From: Chloroflexota bacterium
GTDB taxonomy: Bacteria; Chloroflexota; Dehalococcoidia; JACQUO01
Direction: 5' to 3'
Length of the DNA stretch: 64,000 nucleotides
NCBI GenBank assembly: GCA_016210205.1
Contig: JACQUO010000023.1
Coordinates: forward strand, 188,012 to 252,011
Below the pieces are notes generated by a model. The model worked only from the letters and a program-made list of their open reading frames with translations, searched no databases and was not told where the DNA came from. A program made the translations under genes and the position numbers. Within the stretch, counting starts at the first letter, position 1. The number at the start of each line of letters is the position of its first letter. This document shows, piece after piece, positions 3,080 through 63,160 of this stretch.

Positions 3080-3167
3080 GGTAAAACCATTATAGTGCAA
3101 ATTCCAGGCTCCTTCCAGTATGGCCAGGCTGAAGCTTGAAACCAAACGAGCCCCCGATGAGAGATCG

Positions 3168-3284
3168 TTTAGCAAGCCTTACGACCATCCCCTTGACCCC
3201 CCTTCCCGGTCAGGAAGGGGGAATCGAATGAAGCTGGGGGACACCCCAGACCCCCGACAAGGGGAGCATTGCCCCCTTGTAACC
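3168..3284 (+). repeat. Dispersed structured element, copy R5
   Basis: Hairpin A CCCCTTCC-CGGTCA-GGAAGGGG; B CTGGGG(G)ACACCCCAG; C ACAAGGGG-AGCATTGC-CCCCTTGT. Confidence 0.75.
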
Positions 3285-3385
3285 CTCATTTCTAAACGCT
3301 CTACCCCCCGATGACCCCCAAAAGCCCTAACTTCATGACGGATTATTCGTTATACTAAGCGAAGACACCCGAGAGGAGGCACCCT

Positions 3386-4947: not shown

Positions 4948-6039
4948 ATGCCGATGGACTACATGGCCCGCGCCCTGGCCCTGGCTCGCCAGGCCCTGGG
5001 CAATGTCAGCCCCAATCCGGCGGTGGGGGCCGTCATGGTCAGAGACGGCCAGGTCATCGGGGAGGGCTGCACCCAGCCCCCCGGGGGCGCCCACGCCGAG
5101 GTCATGGCCCTCAAGGCCGCCGGGCCAGCCGCGCGGGGGGCGGCCCTCTATGTGACCCTGGAGCCCTGCTGCCACAAGGGGCGCACCCCACCCTGCACCG
5201 GGGCCATCATCGCTGCGGGCCTGGGGGAGGTGCACCTGGCCGCCCTCGACCCCAACCCCCTGGTGAACGGCCGGGGGAAGGCGGAGCTCGAGACCGCGGG
5301 TATCCGCGTCCGGGTGGGGGAGCGGGAGGAGGAGGCCCAGGAACTCAACGAGGCCTTTTTTAAATACATCACCACGGGCCTGCCCTTCGTTACCGCCAAG
5401 TTCGCCGCCAGCCTGGACGGGAAAATCGCAACCAGAAGCAGGCAGTCCCAATGGCTCAGCGGCGAGGAGGCGAGGCGCTTCGGCCACCGCCTGCGCCAGA
5501 TTTCCGACGCTGTCCTGGTGGGGGTGGAGACGGCGCTGGCCGATGACCCCCGCCTCACGGCGCGGCTGGGAGGCGAGGGACGGCAGCCCCTCCGAATCAT
5601 CCTGGACAGCCAGGGACGCACCATGCCCAAGGCGCGCCTCTTTCGGGAGCCGGGCCCAGTGCTCATCGCCACTGCGGGCCCCATCCCCCTGCCACGCCGC
5701 CGCGCCCTGGAGAGCGTGGGGGCGGAGGTCGTGGCGCTCCCAGCGGAGGCCGGGCACGTGGCCCTTGCGACCCTCCTGCGGGAGCTGGGACGGCGGCAAG
5801 TCACCTCCCTGCTGGTGGAAGGCGGGGGCACGGTGCTAGGCGCCTTCTTCGATGCGGGGCTGGTGGACCGGGCCACGGCGGTGCTCTCGCCCCTCATCAT
5901 CGGGGGGCGGGAGGCCGTCTCCGCGGTGGCCGGCCACGGCGCGGAGACCCTGGCCCAGGCCTGGCGCCTGGCCAAGGTGCGGACAGAGGTTTTGGGGCAG
6001 GATATTGCCATTTCAGGTAGAATAGTGGGCGAGGGCTAA
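4948..6039 (+). CDS. ribD: Bifunctional riboflavin biosynthesis deaminase/reductase RibD
   Basis: Deaminase zinc motif 'GGAHAEVMALK...YVTLEPCCHKGRTPPC' and C-terminal reductase 'KFAASLDGKIAT'. The supplied ORF (4582) is over-extended; the start here is ATG at 4948. Confidence 0.95.
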   Translation: MPMDYMARALALARQALGNVSPNPAVGAVMVRDGQVIGEGCTQPPGGAHAEVMALKAAGPAARGAALYVTLEPCCHKGRTPPCTGAIIAAGLGEVHLAALDPNPLVNGRGKAELETAGIRVRVGEREEEAQELNEAFFKYITTGLPFVTAKFAASLDGKIATRSRQSQWLSGEEARRFGHRLRQISDAVLVGVETALADDPRLTARLGGEGRQPLRIILDSQGRTMPKARLFREPGPVLIATAGPIPLPRRRALESVGAEVVALPAEAGHVALATLLRELGRRQVTSLLVEGGGTVLGAFFDAGLVDRATAVLSPLIIGGREAVSAVAGHGAETLAQAWRLAKVRTEVLGQDIAISGRIVGEG

Positions 6040-6685: not shown

Positions 6686-7897
6686 GTGGGGAGGACGAAG
6701 ACCATGGGACTAGCGACCATTGAAGAGGCCCTGGAGGACATCCGGGCCGGCAAGTTTGTCATCATCGTGGACGATGAGGATCGAGAGAACGAGGGCGACC
6801 TGGTCATCGCCGCGGAGAAATGCTCGCCGGAGGCCATCAACTTCATGGCCAAGCACGGCCGGGGGCTCATCTGCGTGGCTCTGACCGGGGAGCGCTTGGA
6901 TAACTTGCGCCTCCCCCTCATGGTCCAGGATAACACCTCGCCCTTCGGGACAGCCTTCTGCGTGTCCGTGGAGGCCAAGCACAAGGTGACCACGGGCATC
7001 TCCGCCCACGACCGGGCGGCCACCGTCCGGGCCCTGCTGGACCCCGCCACCCAGCCCGAGGACCTGACACGCCCCGGCCACATGTTCCCGCTGCGGGCCC
7101 GGGAGGGCGGGGTGCTGGTGCGGGCCGGCCAGACCGAGGCCAGCGTGGACATGGCGCGCCTGGCAGGGCTCCAACCAGCGGGGGTCATCTGCGAAATCAT
7201 GGACGAAGACGGCACCATGGCCCGGAGGCCGCGGCTGGAGGTCTTCTCAGCGCAGCATGGCATTAAAATCATTAGCGTGGCCCAGCTCATTGCCTACCGG
7301 CGGCGGCACGAGAGGCTCATCCAGCGGTTGGCCGAGGCCAAGCTGCCCACCCGTTATGGCGACTTCAAAATCGTGGCCTACAAGAGCACCATCGACCCCG
7401 AGGAGCATGTGGCCCTGGTCATGGGGGACATCACGGGACCTGACCCGGTGCTGGTGCGGGTGCACAGCGAGTGCCTCACGGGGGATGTCTTCGGCTCCCA
7501 ACGCTGCGACTGCGGGAGCCAGATTGCCCTCGCCCTGCAGGCCATCGCTAAGGTGGGACGGGGCGTCTTCGTCTATATGCGTCAGGAGGGCCGGGGCATT
7601 GGCCTGGTCAACAAGCTCAGGGCCTACGGCCTTCAGGATAACGGCATGGACACTGTGGAGGCCAACCAGCACCTGGGCTTCCCCGCCGACCTCCGGGACT
7701 ACGGCATCGGGGCCCAAATCCTGGTCGACCTGGGGCTTGCCAAAATACGCCTCCTCACCAACAACCCCCGCAAGGTCATCGGCCTGGAGGGCTATGGGCT
7801 TCAGGTGATGGACCGCGTGCCCATCGTGGCCCCTCCCCACGAGAACAATGTGGCCTATCTGGAGACCAAGCGCCGCAAGCTGGGCCATATTATGTAA
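6686..7897 (+). CDS. ribBA: Bifunctional DHBP synthase / GTP cyclohydrolase II
   Basis: '[17 protein letters not shown]' (RibB) and '[21 protein letters not shown]', '[16 protein letters not shown]' (RibA). Confidence 0.95.
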
Positions 7898-8745: not shown

Positions 8746-8854
8746 GGCTACACCTCCGGAGGCTTTTTCCCAGCTGCTCCCGCCCAGTATAATTCCCCTC
8801 CAAGCCCAAATCAATAGGTGGCGACCGCAATTTGCCACCGCCTCATCCCCCTTC

Positions 8855-9005
8855 CCCCTTCTCCAGATGGAGAAGGGGGAAGAGAAGGGAGCGGGGGACA
8901 CCCCCGCACCCCTGGCAGGGGGCACGGCCCCCTGCACCCCCAGGGGCTAGAGACTGTGGGCAGGACACCCCCGACTCCCGCCAGGGGGCAAGCCCTCTGG
9001 ACTAC
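8855..9005 (+). repeat. Dispersed structured intergenic element, copy R1 (hairpins A, B, C plus a second C-type hairpin)
   Basis: Hairpin A CTTCCCCCTTCTCCAGATGGAGAAGGGGGAAG; B GCGGGGGACACCCCCGC; C GCAGGGGGC-ACG-GCCCCCTGC (8915-8935); second C CCAGGGGGC-AA-GCCCTCTGG (8981-9000). Confidence 0.85.
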
Positions 9006-12825: not shown

Positions 12826-12934
12826 TAGAGCCTCCTTGGGCCTAACTTGCTTTCTCTACTTGCCTAGTAGGAACTGCTTTTACCAGCTAACTTTACCAGA
12901 ATAGCCCCCCCTTTGTCAAAGGTTTGCCACAGGC

Positions 12935-12990
12935 AGATACCCCCCCAGACCCCTGGCAGAGGGACTTCGCCCCTCTGCACTCCCCAGCGC
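12935..12990 (+). repeat. Dispersed structured element, copy R4 (hairpin C only)
   Basis: CCCCTGGCAGAGGG-ACTTCG-CCCCTCTGCACTCCCC; stem GCAGAGGG/CCCTCTGC (12956-12978). Confidence 0.65.
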
Positions 12991-16945: not shown

Positions 16946-17124
16946 ATCTTCTCCTCCCCCAAGTCCCGGGGGGTCTGAACCCCATTGTAGCAGATGGAGA
17001 CAGGGAGAAAAACTAACATTGCGTCGTCCTGGAGGTCTATCGCAATTTGAGGATGCTATGGGCGAAGCCCGCCGCAGACGGATTAGGAGTGTCCCCATCT
17101 CTCTACCTCCCCCTCACTGACAGA

Positions 17125-17255
17125 CATGGGGGACCCGAGGGTGCAGGGGGAACGCCCGCCGCAGGCGGGCCGGGGGCCTGGGGGTGTCCCCCAGTCTTCC
17201 TTACCTTCCCCCTCTCCTTCCAGGAGAGGGGGAGAAAGGGGGTGAGGTGTCCAGA
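17125..17255 (-). repeat. Dispersed structured element, copy R3 (inverted orientation)
   Basis: Contains CCCCCTCTCCT-TCC-AGGAGAGGGGG, CTGGGGG-TGT-CCCCCAG and GGTGCAGGGGG... segments matching hairpins A, B and C of R1 read from the minus strand. Confidence 0.7.
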
Positions 17256-30138: not shown

Positions 30139-30906
30139 TTGAACGGTCCCTTGCAGCGCCTGCGGGTGACCTTCTCCCGGGGCGCGGAACTCAAGTTCAT
30201 CACCCATCTGGACCTGATGCGGCTGTGGGAACGGGCCCTCCGCCGCGCCGGGGTGGGCCTGGCCTACTCCGAGGGCTACACGCCCCATCCCAGGATTTCC
30301 CTGGCGGCGCCGCTGGCCGTGGGAGTCACCAGCGAGGGAGAGCTCATGGATGTCTATCTGGAGCGGCGGCTGGCCCCCTCCCAGTTCCAGAGCCTGATGC
30401 AGCCCCAGCTCCCGGTGGGCATCAAAATCCTGTCTCTTCAGGAAATAGGGGTGGCCGTGCCCTCGCTCCAGTCCATGGTGCGCGCGGCGGAATACCGCGT
30501 GGAGATGGAGTCCCCACTCTCCCCCCCGGAGGTGGAGGAAGCCATAGCCGCCCTCTTGGCCCGCACCAGCCTTCCCTGGCAGCATCTCCGGGACACCCAG
30601 GTGCGCCAGTATGACCTGCGCGCCCAGGTCCAGGACCTGTGGCTGGAGGGCTGCCGGGATGGCGTCTGCGCCCTGGGCATGCGGCTCAAGGCCGACCCCG
30701 AGGGCAGCGGCCGCCCCGAGCAGGTGGCGGCGGCCCTGGGCCTAGGGGCCAGCCCGGCGCGCATCCACCGCACCAAGCTCATGGTGGAGCGCTACACCCC
30801 CCCCAAGCCCGCTTCCCGCCCCGACCACCGCCCTCCGTCGGCCCGGCCCAGGGGACGCCCCGGGCCGGGGTATCGCTTCACGCCCCGTCCCCCCCGCCGT
30901 CCCTAG
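30139..30906 (+). CDS. TIGR03936/DUF2344 family radical SAM-associated protein
   Basis: 'LRVTFSRGAELKFITHLDLMRLWERALRRAGVGLAYSEGYTPHPRISLAAPLAVGVTSEGELMDVYL'. Confidence 0.88.
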   Translation: MNGPLQRLRVTFSRGAELKFITHLDLMRLWERALRRAGVGLAYSEGYTPHPRISLAAPLAVGVTSEGELMDVYLERRLAPSQFQSLMQPQLPVGIKILSLQEIGVAVPSLQSMVRAAEYRVEMESPLSPPEVEEAIAALLARTSLPWQHLRDTQVRQYDLRAQVQDLWLEGCRDGVCALGMRLKADPEGSGRPEQVAAALGLGASPARIHRTKLMVERYTPPKPASRPDHRPPSARPRGRPGPGYRFTPRPPRRP

Positions 30907-30959
30907 TGTCGTGTCACCCAGATGAGTCTCCATTACCCTTGTCCTCTCCCGGGGTCATA

Positions 30960-31067
30960 CCTCACCCCCTGGCCCCCTTCTCCAGATGGAGAAGGGGGAA
31001 GAGAAGGGAGCTGGGGTGTCCCCCGCACCCCTGGCAGGGGGCACGGCCCCCTGCACCCCCATAAGGC
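30960..31067 (+). repeat. Dispersed structured element, copy R2
   Basis: Shares with R1 the exact strings CCCCCTTCTCCAGATGGAGAAGGGGGAAGAGAAGGGAGC and CCCCCGCACCCCTGGCAGGGGGCACGGCCCCCTGCACCCCCA. Confidence 0.9.
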
Positions 31068-31222
31068 GTTTCAATAACCTACAGAACACTAGCCCCAGCC
31101 CGTGGGCCAGGCCGCCCCGCTTGATTTGCTCTATACTATAAGGAAAATTTCCTCTCCTTTACCCTTTATGTTATTATGTAAACTGATTCTCCATCAGATG
31201 AATACAAAACCCCGAAAAGGCG

Positions 31223-32701: not shown

Positions 32702-32733
32702 CATAAGCCCACAAGTTAATAGATACCAGCACC

Positions 32734-32898
32734 TCTCCGAGCTGCCTCACCTAAAGAGCCATCCATGGGGGGCAGCCGCAGCGGATGAAAATCCCAACGG
32801 TGTGGGGAGAAATCCCCCCGCCCCTCGTAGTGGAAAGGAGTGGTGAGGAATTAGCCTATGCTTTCGCCTCACCCTTTCCGATGAGGCGAATTCTTTTT
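32734..32898 (+). promoter_or_regulatory. Probable Moco/Tuco-type riboswitch with transcription attenuator upstream of tupABC
   Basis: P1 CCTCACC (32745-32751)/GGTGAGG (32842-32848). The P1 3' strand can alternatively pair with CCTCACC (32867-32873) inside the terminator TTCGCCTCA/TGAGGCGAA (32863-32890)+TTCTTTTT. An internal GGGGA-GAAA-TCCCC GNRA hairpin is present. Confidence 0.75.
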
Positions 32899-47853: not shown

Positions 47854-49197
47854 TTAGGCGCGGCCGTGGCCCGGGCTGCTCTCCACTGCGACCTGCGCTA
47901 TCTGCTCCGCCTGCTTTCTCCGGGCATGCGCCGGGAGCTTGGGGCGGGTGGTGAGGAAGGCCAGGGGGATAGAGACCAAAGCCAGGCCAGCGAAGACCAG
48001 CCAGGCCGTCTGGTAGCTGCCCGTGGTGTCATAGACCCACCCTGCAAAGGGGGGAGCCGCAATCCCGGCCCACATGGTGATGAGGGACTGGAGGCCCTGG
48101 ATGGACCCGAAGGAGTGCCGCCCGAAGTAGCTCCCCAACATGGAGGGCCGCGTCGGGGTGCTGGCCCCGTAGCCGATGGGAAAGGTGACCAGGAAGAGCA
48201 CCAGCAGGAAGGGGCTCCCTGGCCCTATGAAGGAATAGGCCACCAGCCCCACCACCTCCAGGGCAAAGAGCATCATATAGACGAAGCGCGGCTCAATGAA
48301 ATCGGTGAGAGAGCCCAGCCCTAACCGCCCCAGGAGGCTGCTCAAGGTCATGGCCGTCAAGATGAGGGCCGCCGTGCTGGTGGAGTAGCCGACGCTCTCC
48401 AGATACGGCATTTCCAGGACGAAGACGGGGCTCATGAGAACCGCCTGGGTGCTGCCGATGAGAGCCATGAGGTAGAAGGAACGGGTCCTGATGGCCTCCC
48501 TCCAGGTGAAGTTGTACTCCTCGATGACCGGTATCCGTTCCGCCCCCTTAGAGACGGCCACCGGCTCCTTGGGCAGGTCGCCATCGGGGAGATACCCGTA
48601 CCGCTCGGGGCGGTGTCGCATCACCAGAGCGATGGAGGGCCCCACCACCAACCAGCCCACCGCCGCAACCACCAAGGCCATGCGCCAGCCCACCCCGGCG
48701 ATGAGCATCGCCACCAGGGGCACCCCCGAGCCGCTCAGCCCCATCCCCACGGCCAGGATGCTCAGAGCGCGCCCCCGCCGTCGCCGGAACCAGTTGTTCA
48801 CCGCCACGGTGACCACCCCTAAGGAGCACATGCTTGTACCGCTGGCTATAACCACGAAGGCCGCATAGAACATCCACAGGCTGGTTACCTGGCTCAGGAA
48901 GAAGAAGCCCAAAGCAGCGATGGGCACCCCAATGAGCATCATCTTGCGGGAACCAATCCGGTCCAGGGCGAACCCGATGATGGGAGCGGCCAAGCCGGTC
49001 TCCAGGCGCTGGAAAGAGAAGGCCAGAGCAGTCTGGGCGGAGCTCCACTTGAACTCGCTACGAATGGGATTGAAGAAGGCGGTAAAGCCGTAGGTCCAGA
49101 TGGACCCGCTCCACATATTGAGGATAAGGCCGGCTCCCACCATATACCAGCCGTAGAAGATGCCTTTTTTCTTTCGGGCAGCGGTGTCAGTAGCCAA
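47854..49197 (-). CDS. MFS transporter (oxalate:formate antiporter/monocarboxylate-like), paralog 1
   Basis: 12-TM MFS pattern; 'GIFYGWYMVGAGLILNMWSGSIWTYGFTAFFNPI'. Confidence 0.9.
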   Translation of the reverse strand: MATDTAARKKKGIFYGWYMVGAGLILNMWSGSIWTYGFTAFFNPIRSEFKWSSAQTALAFSFQRLETGLAAPIIGFALDRIGSRKMMLIGVPIAALGFFFLSQVTSLWMFYAAFVVIASGTSMCSLGVVTVAVNNWFRRRRGRALSILAVGMGLSGSGVPLVAMLIAGVGWRMALVVAAVGWLVVGPSIALVMRHRPERYGYLPDGDLPKEPVAVSKGAERIPVIEEYNFTWREAIRTRSFYLMALIGSTQAVLMSPVFVLEMPYLESVGYSTSTAALILTAMTLSSLLGRLGLGSLTDFIEPRFVYMMLFALEVVGLVAYSFIGPGSPFLLVLFLVTFPIGYGASTPTRPSMLGSYFGRHSFGSIQGLQSLITMWAGIAAPPFAGWVYDTTGSYQTAWLVFAGLALVSIPLAFLTTRPKLPAHARRKQAEQIAQVAVESSPGHGRA

Positions 49198-49283
49198 ATA
49201 TCTCTCCTTTTTCAGCGCCCTGCACTTGGGGCATTTTCGTGTACCCTGCAGCCCCCTGGGAGACCGAAGAACGCGACTCAGGC

Positions 49284-50618
49284 TCAGTCCCCACCGGCAT
49301 TGCCACCCACGGCTTGCGCTACCCGCTCGGCCTGCTTAACCCGGGCATGCGCCGGGAGCTGGGGCCGGGTAGTGAGGAAGGCCAGGGGGATAGAGGCGAA
49401 GGCCATGACCGCGAAAACCAGCCAGGCCACCTGATAGCTACCCACGGTGTCATACATCCAGCCCGCAAAGAGGGGGGCCACCATCCCCGGCCACATGGTG
49501 ATAAGGGCCTGCAGGCCTTGAATGGCCCCGAAGGAACGCCTGCCGAAGTAGTTCCCCAGCAGGGACGGCCGCACCGGGGTGCTGGCACCATAGCCGATGG
49601 GGAAGGTGGACAGAAAGAGGATTATCAGGAAAAGGTTCCCGGGAGACATATAAGAGTAGGCCAGCAGCCCCACCCCCTCCAGGGCAAAGAGCATCATATA
49701 GACGAAGTGGGGCTCAACCCAGTCGGTCAGGGCCCCCAGGCCCACCCTACCGATGAGGCTACTTAGGGTCATGGCCGAGAGGATGAAGGCGGCGGTGCCG
49801 GTGGCAAAGCCAATGCTCTCCAAATACGGAATCTCATGGACGAAGACCGCCCCCATGACGACGGCCTGGGTGCTGCCAATGAGGCCAGCGAAATAGAAAG
49901 CCCGGGTCCGGATGGCCTCTCGCCAGGTGAAGTTGTACTCCTGGCGGATGGGCACCCGCTCCGCAGCCTTGGCCGGCTGGGCGGCGTCCCCTGGGGAGTC
50001 GCCGTCGGGCAGATAGCCATACTGCTCCGGACGTTGCCGCATGAGGCTGGCGACGGGCAGCCCCACCACCAGCCACCCAATGCCGATGATTAACAAGGCC
50101 GTGCGCCAGCCCCCCCAGTCCAGCAGCATCACTACCAGGGGCACCCCGATGCCGCTCAGGCCAATCCCCACGGCGATGATGGAGAAGGCCAAGCCCCGGC
50201 GGCGCCGGAACCAGTTGTTCACCGCCACCGTCGTGATGGCGAAAGATCCCATGCTCTGTCCGATGGCGATGACCATGAAGGCGGCGTAGAACATCCCCAG
50301 GTCGGAAATCGTGCTCAGGAGGATGTTGCCGATGGCGATGATGGGCAGACCTATCAACATGAGCTTGCGGGGCCCCAGACGGTCCACCATGAAGCCTATT
50401 ACGGGGGCAGCCAGCCCAGTCTCCAGGCGCTGGAAAGAGAAGGCCAAAGAGGTCTGTGTGTAAGTCCAGTTGAACTGGGTGCGGATGGGATTGAAGAAGG
50501 CAGTGAAGCCGTAAATCCAGACGGAGCCATTCCATATATTTAAAATGAAGGCTCCGATGACGATATACCAGCCGTAGAAGATGCCTTTTTTCTTTGGGGC
50601 TACGGTATCAATAGGCAA
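49284..50618 (-). CDS. MFS transporter, paralog 2
   Basis: Colinear with paralog 1 ('KKKGIFYGWYIVIGAFILNIWNGSVWIYGFTAFFNPIRTQF'). Confidence 0.9.
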   Translation of the reverse strand: MPIDTVAPKKKGIFYGWYIVIGAFILNIWNGSVWIYGFTAFFNPIRTQFNWTYTQTSLAFSFQRLETGLAAPVIGFMVDRLGPRKLMLIGLPIIAIGNILLSTISDLGMFYAAFMVIAIGQSMGSFAITTVAVNNWFRRRRGLAFSIIAVGIGLSGIGVPLVVMLLDWGGWRTALLIIGIGWLVVGLPVASLMRQRPEQYGYLPDGDSPGDAAQPAKAAERVPIRQEYNFTWREAIRTRAFYFAGLIGSTQAVVMGAVFVHEIPYLESIGFATGTAAFILSAMTLSSLIGRVGLGALTDWVEPHFVYMMLFALEGVGLLAYSYMSPGNLFLIILFLSTFPIGYGASTPVRPSLLGNYFGRRSFGAIQGLQALITMWPGMVAPLFAGWMYDTVGSYQVAWLVFAVMAFASIPLAFLTTRPQLPAHARVKQAERVAQAVGGNAGGD

Positions 50619-54070: not shown

Positions 54071-54227
54071 GCGAGACCCGCCTCACCTCGGGAAACATCA
54101 CTTCAACCTGGCGCTCCTCTTTTGGGAGCGCTAGATTATCTTAAATCTTATCACTCGCCTCCAAAGCTGTCAAGGAAAATGCCCCCGGCTCCCCAAAAGG
54201 GCCAAGGCCAGCTCGGGCCTGGGAGGT

Positions 54228-54285
54228 TGTTTAGCACCGCTTTACGACCATCCCCCTGACCCTCCTCCTGGTCAGGAAGAACGCT
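54228..54285 (+). repeat. Dispersed structured element, copy R6 (partial, R5 subtype)
   Basis: TTTAGCA..GC.TTACGACCATCCCC.TGACCC.CCT.C.GGTCAGGAAG shared with R5. Confidence 0.65.
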
Positions 54286-61989: not shown

Positions 61990-62035
61990 CTTGTGGTCAG
62001 GGCCCAGGGGTGCGGAGGCTTTGCCCCTCGTAACC
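61990..62035 (+). repeat. Weak/degenerate copy R7 of the dispersed structured element
   Basis: GGTCAGGGCCCAGGGGTGCGGAGGC-TTT-GCCCCTCGTAACCCCC resembles the hairpin C end of R5. Confidence 0.4.
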
Positions 62036-63060: not shown

Positions 63061-63107
63061 AGCCCAGGCCCGGCCTTGCCTGCGCAGATGCAGATAAAGA
63101 GACTGGT

Positions 63108-63160
63108 GGAGACACCCCACACCCCGGCAGAGGGCTGCGCCCCCTGCACCCCCAAGTGTC
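63108..63160 (+). repeat. Dispersed structured element, copy R8
   Basis: GACACCCCACACCCCGGCAGAGGGCTGCGCCCCCTGCACCCCCA; hairpin C 63127-63147. Confidence 0.75.

Follow-up and report, generated by a model that had tools for sequence, protein, structure and literature searches.

REP and REPIN units are palindromes or doublets of 20-40 bp that carry a GTAG or CGTC tag and are associated with RAYT transposases (PMC3116915, PMC3733652), and CGTC repeats with CCTC variants also exist among REPs (PMC3733652). The BOX elements of Streptococcus pneumoniae are modular A-B-C composites with an iterated part, which are intergenic, structured and presumed to be mobilised in trans; the pneumococcus also carries the terminator-like SPRITE repeats (PMC3049150). 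Bacterial MITEs, such as RUP, NEMIS/Correia and Nezha, have terminal inverted repeats.

The repeat family analysed here resembles each of these systems in part. Like REP, BIME and REPIN sequences with their RAYTs, it consists of dispersed, high-copy intergenic palindromes with compensatory stem changes, iterated units and, likely, a single-strand biology; it differs in having three different hairpins over 100 nt and in the inverted-repeat frames around some copies. The family is thus extragenic, abundant and palindromic, as REPs are, but no GTAG or CGTC tag was found at the element ends, whose 5' termini are CCTCA, GACCA or ATCAA. Because this tag is lacking and 10 of 14 element-bearing genomes have no Y1 transposase, the family does not belong with REP/RAYT; CCTC variants exist there, but the other defining features differ. 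Compared by description, BOX shares the modular composite layout and differs in organism and arrangement: here B and C iterate together, and the core has several end types or none. As in MITEs, part of the family has terminal inverted repeats, with intact lengths of 143-190 bp, but one core is common to different end types, the majority of copies are unframed, no partner insertion sequence was found, and orientation is polar. As in SPRITE, a T-rich tract comes after the last hairpin of copies in another genome, G038, but the element has three hairpins with strand-specific linkers, and the home genome has no T tract.

To our knowledge, neither REP nor MITE families have been described as a single structured core with several unrelated end types and polar orientation. 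No Rfam curated covariance model matched at the gathering threshold, and only chance-level eukaryotic matches appeared at E<=1. Text searches of the open-access literature, using the hairpin B sequence and Dehalococcoidia repeats as queries, returned nothing relevant and no description of the family. The family matches no named repeat family searched, and it works like the REPIN, BOX and MITE families, being extragenic, structured and presumably moved in trans.

The window, by which we mean the entire 64,000-nt stretch analysed, had been described in the initial annotation as holding a dispersed modular family of three-hairpin elements in six to eight copies. We aligned 29 oriented cores (alignment A1) and derived a covariance model (R1). 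The core is about 100 nt long and strand-specific. From 5' to 3' it comprises a leader, TCA(N)CCCCC; hairpin A; a purine-rich spacer; hairpin B with an ACA loop; a linker, CCCCCGG; hairpin C; and a tail, CTGCAC. In some copies the B-C unit is iterated. The copies in the window are as follows, with classes i to iii denoting inverted-repeat frames and class iv a common 5' flank.

3161-3304, plus strand: class ii element with ends GAGATCGTTTAGCAAGCC ... CATTTCTAAACGCTCT around the core (flank and end-pair analysis, sequence)
3183-3286, plus strand: three-hairpin core within the class ii element (R1 65.2 bits; outside the training set)
8841-8942, plus strand: full A-B-C core, bare, with no inverted-repeat frame (R1 104.7 bits at 8841-8941; in the R1 training set)
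8943-9003, plus strand: degenerate second B'-C' unit after the 8841 core, GGCAGGACACCCCC ... CCAGGGGGCAAGCCCTCTGG (sequence)
12935-12990, plus strand: partial copy with the 3' arm of B, the linker and hairpin C (weak R1 match at 12905-12984, 23.7 bits; sequence)
17049-17146, minus strand: degraded second unit in tandem with the 17148-17247 core (R1 30.9 bits)
17148-17247, minus strand: three-hairpin core with the class iv 5' flank CTAAATCTCCCAGTCTTCTGGACA (R1 84.0 bits; outside the training set)
30903-31092, plus strand: class i element of about 190 bp with terminal inverted repeats CTAGTGTCGTGTCA ... CTACAGAACACTAG (some 13 other copies in the genome carry this frame)
30960-31060, plus strand: three-hairpin core within the class i element (R1 93.4 bits; in the R1 training set; mutual nearest relative of the 8841 core)
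54223-54285, plus strand: remnant with the class ii left end (3 mismatches) and hairpin A, no B-C (repeat family D8; sequence)
63095-63154, plus strand: partial copy with hairpins B and C only (74% identical to the reference copy; R1 36.1 bits)

The modular A-B-C layout was borne out, with the full order present at 8841, 30960, 17247 (reverse) and 3183. The expected number of copies held in part: four are full and three (63108, 12935 and 54228) are partial, but the site at 61990-62035 was rejected, being a weak C-like palindrome with no R1 match. As R1 was partly trained on the 8841 and 30960 copies, these two match by construction, and the 17148 and 3183 copies are the independent ones. The 8841 and 30960 copies are 92% identical over 102 nt. 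In the 30960 core, hairpin B is replaced by its reverse complement (GGGGTGTCCCC), a sign of rearrangement at the level of single hairpins; such loops are rare (138 ACA, 4 TGT).

The covariance-model search that the initial annotation had proposed was carried out on the home genome and on related Chloroflexota, and both gave matches. The home assembly (1.42 Mb in 34 contigs, 87.5% complete) contains at least 150 copies of the repeat, nearly all scoring above 50 bits. Searched against this genome with blastn, the 8855-9005 element gave 58 matches; most, at least 45, are separate copies, with identities of 70-92%. The A-B-C-B'-C' order also occurs elsewhere, for example in copy L003.

We then considered whether the paired stem differences between copies reflect selection on pairing, as had been suggested. 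RNAalifold recovered three hairpins from A1, which was not fitted to the model, with two-sided changes at 11 of 25 pairs. Among 150 home-genome copies, two-sided changes were found at 24 of 25 pairs, and the covariation score was.312 against.129 after shuffling; for 66 copies from other genomes the corresponding values were 21 of 25 pairs and.380 against.158. In the latter two alignments, which unlike A1 were fitted to the model, paired cells are over-represented. When partners were slid by 1-3 columns, the score was at most.10. The paired differences are thus real in both sets of copies. G-U and A-C interruptions of pairs numbered 97:76 in the home genome and 39:18 in the others. The same count for tRNA stems was 38:0, a figure biased by the use of ARAGORN pairs, as this program reports paired stems. 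RNA-level selection tolerates only G-U, so the near parity suits a structure set in source copies at the DNA level, followed by neutral decay of the copies. It favours mobile DNA, perhaps with effects on transcription, over a maintained RNA function.

On balance, we think it somewhat more likely than not that the repeat is a class-wide, non-autonomous mobile family of REP/BOX/MITE-like character, in which selection acts on the folded DNA and an enzyme working in trans spreads the copies. The basis for this reading that we observed directly consists of the copy number, covarying structure, intergenic placement, cores common to different frames, a locus where the element is present in one species and missing from a congener, and orientation that is not random. 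The REP/MITE-like character anticipated in the initial annotation therefore stands as regards dispersal, structure, intergenic position and abundance, but the link to TnpA-REP (Y1) transposases, which that annotation had put forward for checking, does not. Y1_Tnp (PF01797) was absent from the home genome and from 9 of 13 other element-bearing genomes, the assemblies being incomplete, and Y1/RAYT was rejected as the general mobiliser given its absence from 10 of 14 such genomes overall. A DUF772-type transposase (PF05598; IS5/IS1182-like) was likewise not found in the 87.5% complete home genome. Closely spaced copies had no gene in common, their neighbours all being different housekeeping-type genes.

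Evidence on movement came from G330, a congener of G038. Downstream of a tRNA, its locus is colinear with that of G038, but the element is missing, as are about 60 nearby bases, and the genome has only three weak copies. The comparison shows gain or loss within the genus, in either direction. No clean target-site duplication was seen in this single comparison, in which the sequences are about 75% identical and the ~60 further bases are gone.

The core recurs in frames of terminal inverted repeats, of at least three kinds (143-190 bp), and it also occurs bare. The class i frame is about 190 bp with CTAGTGTCGCGTCA ends, class ii is 143 bp with GAGGTCGTTTAGCAACGCC ends, class iii is 146-148 bp with TAGCAGGCTGCTGAAAAA ends, and class iv is the common 5' flank CTAAATCCCCCAGTCTTCTGGACA. 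Of 121 copies, about 37 have one or both of a pair of ends (~14 in class i, 12 in class ii, 11 in class iii), and 69 have none of the four named frames or flanks. The flanks of bare copies are unrelated to one another. As regards terminal inverted repeats, classes i-iii agree with the definition of a MITE, and the bare copies do not. We also noted class iii ends 60 bp apart with no core between them (L121, 17843-17902), possibly an empty frame or a solo hairpin, and two class iii frames, each about 170 bp long (L106, 11033-11201; L123, 5412-5582), in which no core reached 50 bits and which may hold other cargo or decayed cores. The TATA|CCTCA edge resembles a possible -10 promoter in some copies, but it is not conserved between classes, and we rejected this assignment.

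These frames raise the alternative that the elements are ordinary MITEs, in which the inverted-repeat ends are the recognition sites of DDE transposases and entire elements move as double-stranded DNA; the bare cores would then be old copies whose ends have been lost, and the core a passive filler spread by recombination. The paired ends lie at fixed spacing in all three classes, class i ends are nearly always CTAG, and classes i and iii carry TA at their ends. Frames also amplify coherently, as the nearest relative belonged to the same flank class in 32 of 51 cases (p<.001). The three frames point to DDE-type transposition in some of the family at least, a process for which single strands are not needed. 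Against this account stand the 69 unframed copies and G038, in which all copies seen are bare and end abruptly in unrelated DNA. Furthermore, symmetric ends do not predict a polarity of orientation, and no autonomous partner, that is, a pair of frame ends 0.3-3.5 kb apart, was found in the 0.82 Mb of home genome examined. We consider ordinary MITEs rather unlikely as an explanation of the whole family. The closest pair of all joins the bare 8841 copy to the class i copy at 30960, and nearest relatives lie within 30 kb of each other more often than expected (19 observed against 5.8, p=.0005), often in different frames. Such nearby relatives in different frames are best read as possible products of local conversion or template switching between cores.

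We next examined placement relative to genes, which were called with a simple codon-model gene caller. Outside predicted genes lay 119 of 121 home copies and 65 of 66 copies in other genomes. Between tandem genes, the core strand was antisense in 51:20 home copies (binomial p=.0003) and in 28:8 copies elsewhere (p=.001), or 79 to 28 in total, the copies not being fully independent. Checks of copy number and of orientation to genes, for which the initial annotation had called, gave at least 150 copies and this antisense excess. A strong preference for divergent or 3' gaps was rejected, as it mostly vanished when gap length was matched; some excess remained in divergent gaps of 200-400 bp.

The antisense bias, repeated in other genomes, is also what would be expected of a signal that acts in cis as RNA or DNA (an insulator, terminator, attenuator or RNase site) and is selected at gene boundaries, where it would block or end antisense transcription. 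Strong pairing with strand-specific loops and linkers, the T-rich tract after hairpin C in G038, and copies flanking housekeeping genes that resemble thrS, infC and pheS (putative, by inspection of translations) agree with such a role. On the other hand, copy number ranges from 0 to at least 150 between families, the element is missing from one locus in a congener, G-U pairs are more frequent in tRNA, no T tract occurs in the home genome, and close pairs share no gene set. A selected cis signal is accordingly an unlikely explanation. A terminator-like effect in the genus of G038 is possible and would explain a loss of sense copies.

Orientation also followed a larger scale. It was clustered along home contigs (p=5e-5), with uniform orientation in C14 (6/6), C31 (7/7) and C13 (5/5) and one switch in C18. 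In a regression, neighbouring elements predicted orientation (p=8e-9) independently of flanking genes (p=5e-4), and the polarity was present in every flank class. Orientation tracked GC3 skew corrected for gene strand (rho.53, p=.025, 18 segments), a weak skew that served as the marker of replication direction on the contigs; intergenic GC skew, as a polarity marker, showed no correlation. Clustering was also detected in G038 (p=.004) and weakly in G028 (p=.04). G017 showed none (p=.37), which counts against polarity. In the sampled stretches of G038, C7 had positive skew throughout and only plus copies, C12 had negative skew and minus copies, and C2 had no clear skew. Positive skew usually marks the leading strand. 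Assuming that it does so here, the strand of the core would serve as template for the lagging strand and be exposed as single-stranded DNA, and we infer a lagging-strand mechanism.

Large-scale clustering in three of four genomes tested, in all flank classes, could also be expected of a polar site for chromosome maintenance (KOPS/Chi-like or primase-site-like), the strand of which is tied to replication. We regard this as highly improbable, since about a quarter of copies break the orientation rule, many genomes of the class have none, G017 lacks polarity, and copies sit in mobile-looking frames.

Under the mobile-family reading, the core would multiply within the genome, land between genes and persist as decaying copies. 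Copies would be moved in trans by an enzyme acting on a folded single strand, most likely the lagging-strand template, as the core strand tends to follow replication-type skew. Nearby copies may overwrite each other by conversion or template switching, and copies in the same direction as the flanking genes are probably removed, because the core would act as a polar hairpin block to transcription. A more speculative version, to which we give little credence, is that the core represents a new kind of replicator, self-sufficient and made of single-stranded DNA, which would use the lagging-strand template and an enzyme that is neither Y1 nor classical DDE, invade unrelated inverted-repeat elements as cargo, and have spread through a whole bacterial class.

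Copies in related Chloroflexota, for which the initial annotation had proposed a search, were found widely. Among genomes of the class Dehalococcoidia (one per family), 27 of 41 had matches at E<=.001, some with about 100 copies, and 14 had none; in a phylum sample, 22 of 301 genomes matched at E<=1e-6, some of them outside the class. A scan of 85,488 species genomes for a 31-base pattern found it in 37 stretches; every one is titled Dehalococcoidia or Chloroflexi, and many come from groundwater assemblies. Over 6.6 kb, the home genome is 99.97-100% identical to one such record, JACQOP010000113.1 (Chloroflexi bacterium isolate NC_groundwater_1284), which places the window in such a groundwater lineage. 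In G038, which has 47% GC and belongs to another family, copies keep the leader, A, B with its ACA loop, the CCCCCGGCAGG linker, C and a CTGCACC tail. Chance G/C-tract similarity in a GC-rich genome could be argued from the hairpin B pattern GGGGNNNCCCC, which occurs 13 times in the window where Markov simulations give 13-25, so that a single motif is no evidence and the A-B-C order and model scores carry the case. This explanation is virtually ruled out by R1 scores of up to 105 bits, the identical architecture at 47% GC, the taxonomic restriction of the 31-base pattern and, already, the covariation controls.

Few of the widespread Dehalococcoidia have been brought into culture. A repeat at their gene boundaries in up to at least 150 copies can shape gene expression and genome plasticity, and it can be used as a lineage marker. 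With one structured core that has several unrelated end types and is oriented along a large-scale polarity, the question of how such repeats spread becomes testable.

Some further observations were made. G038 contains more degenerate copies below the first search threshold (e.g. L164, 3384-3471), and its true number thus exceeds 16. A contig from a viral collection, IMGVR_UViG_3300047160_036250 (L193), carries two copies about 1 kb apart, at 5634-5722 and 6742-6841. Within the window, a molybdenum/tungsten cofactor (Moco) riboswitch aptamer (51.7 bits) lies at 32724-32854 on the plus strand, upstream of a plus-strand gene run. Two adjacent genes of about 445 aa at 47854-50618 on the minus strand look like a tandem duplication, with 300-nt blocks that are 82% and 72% identical at a spacing of 1421.
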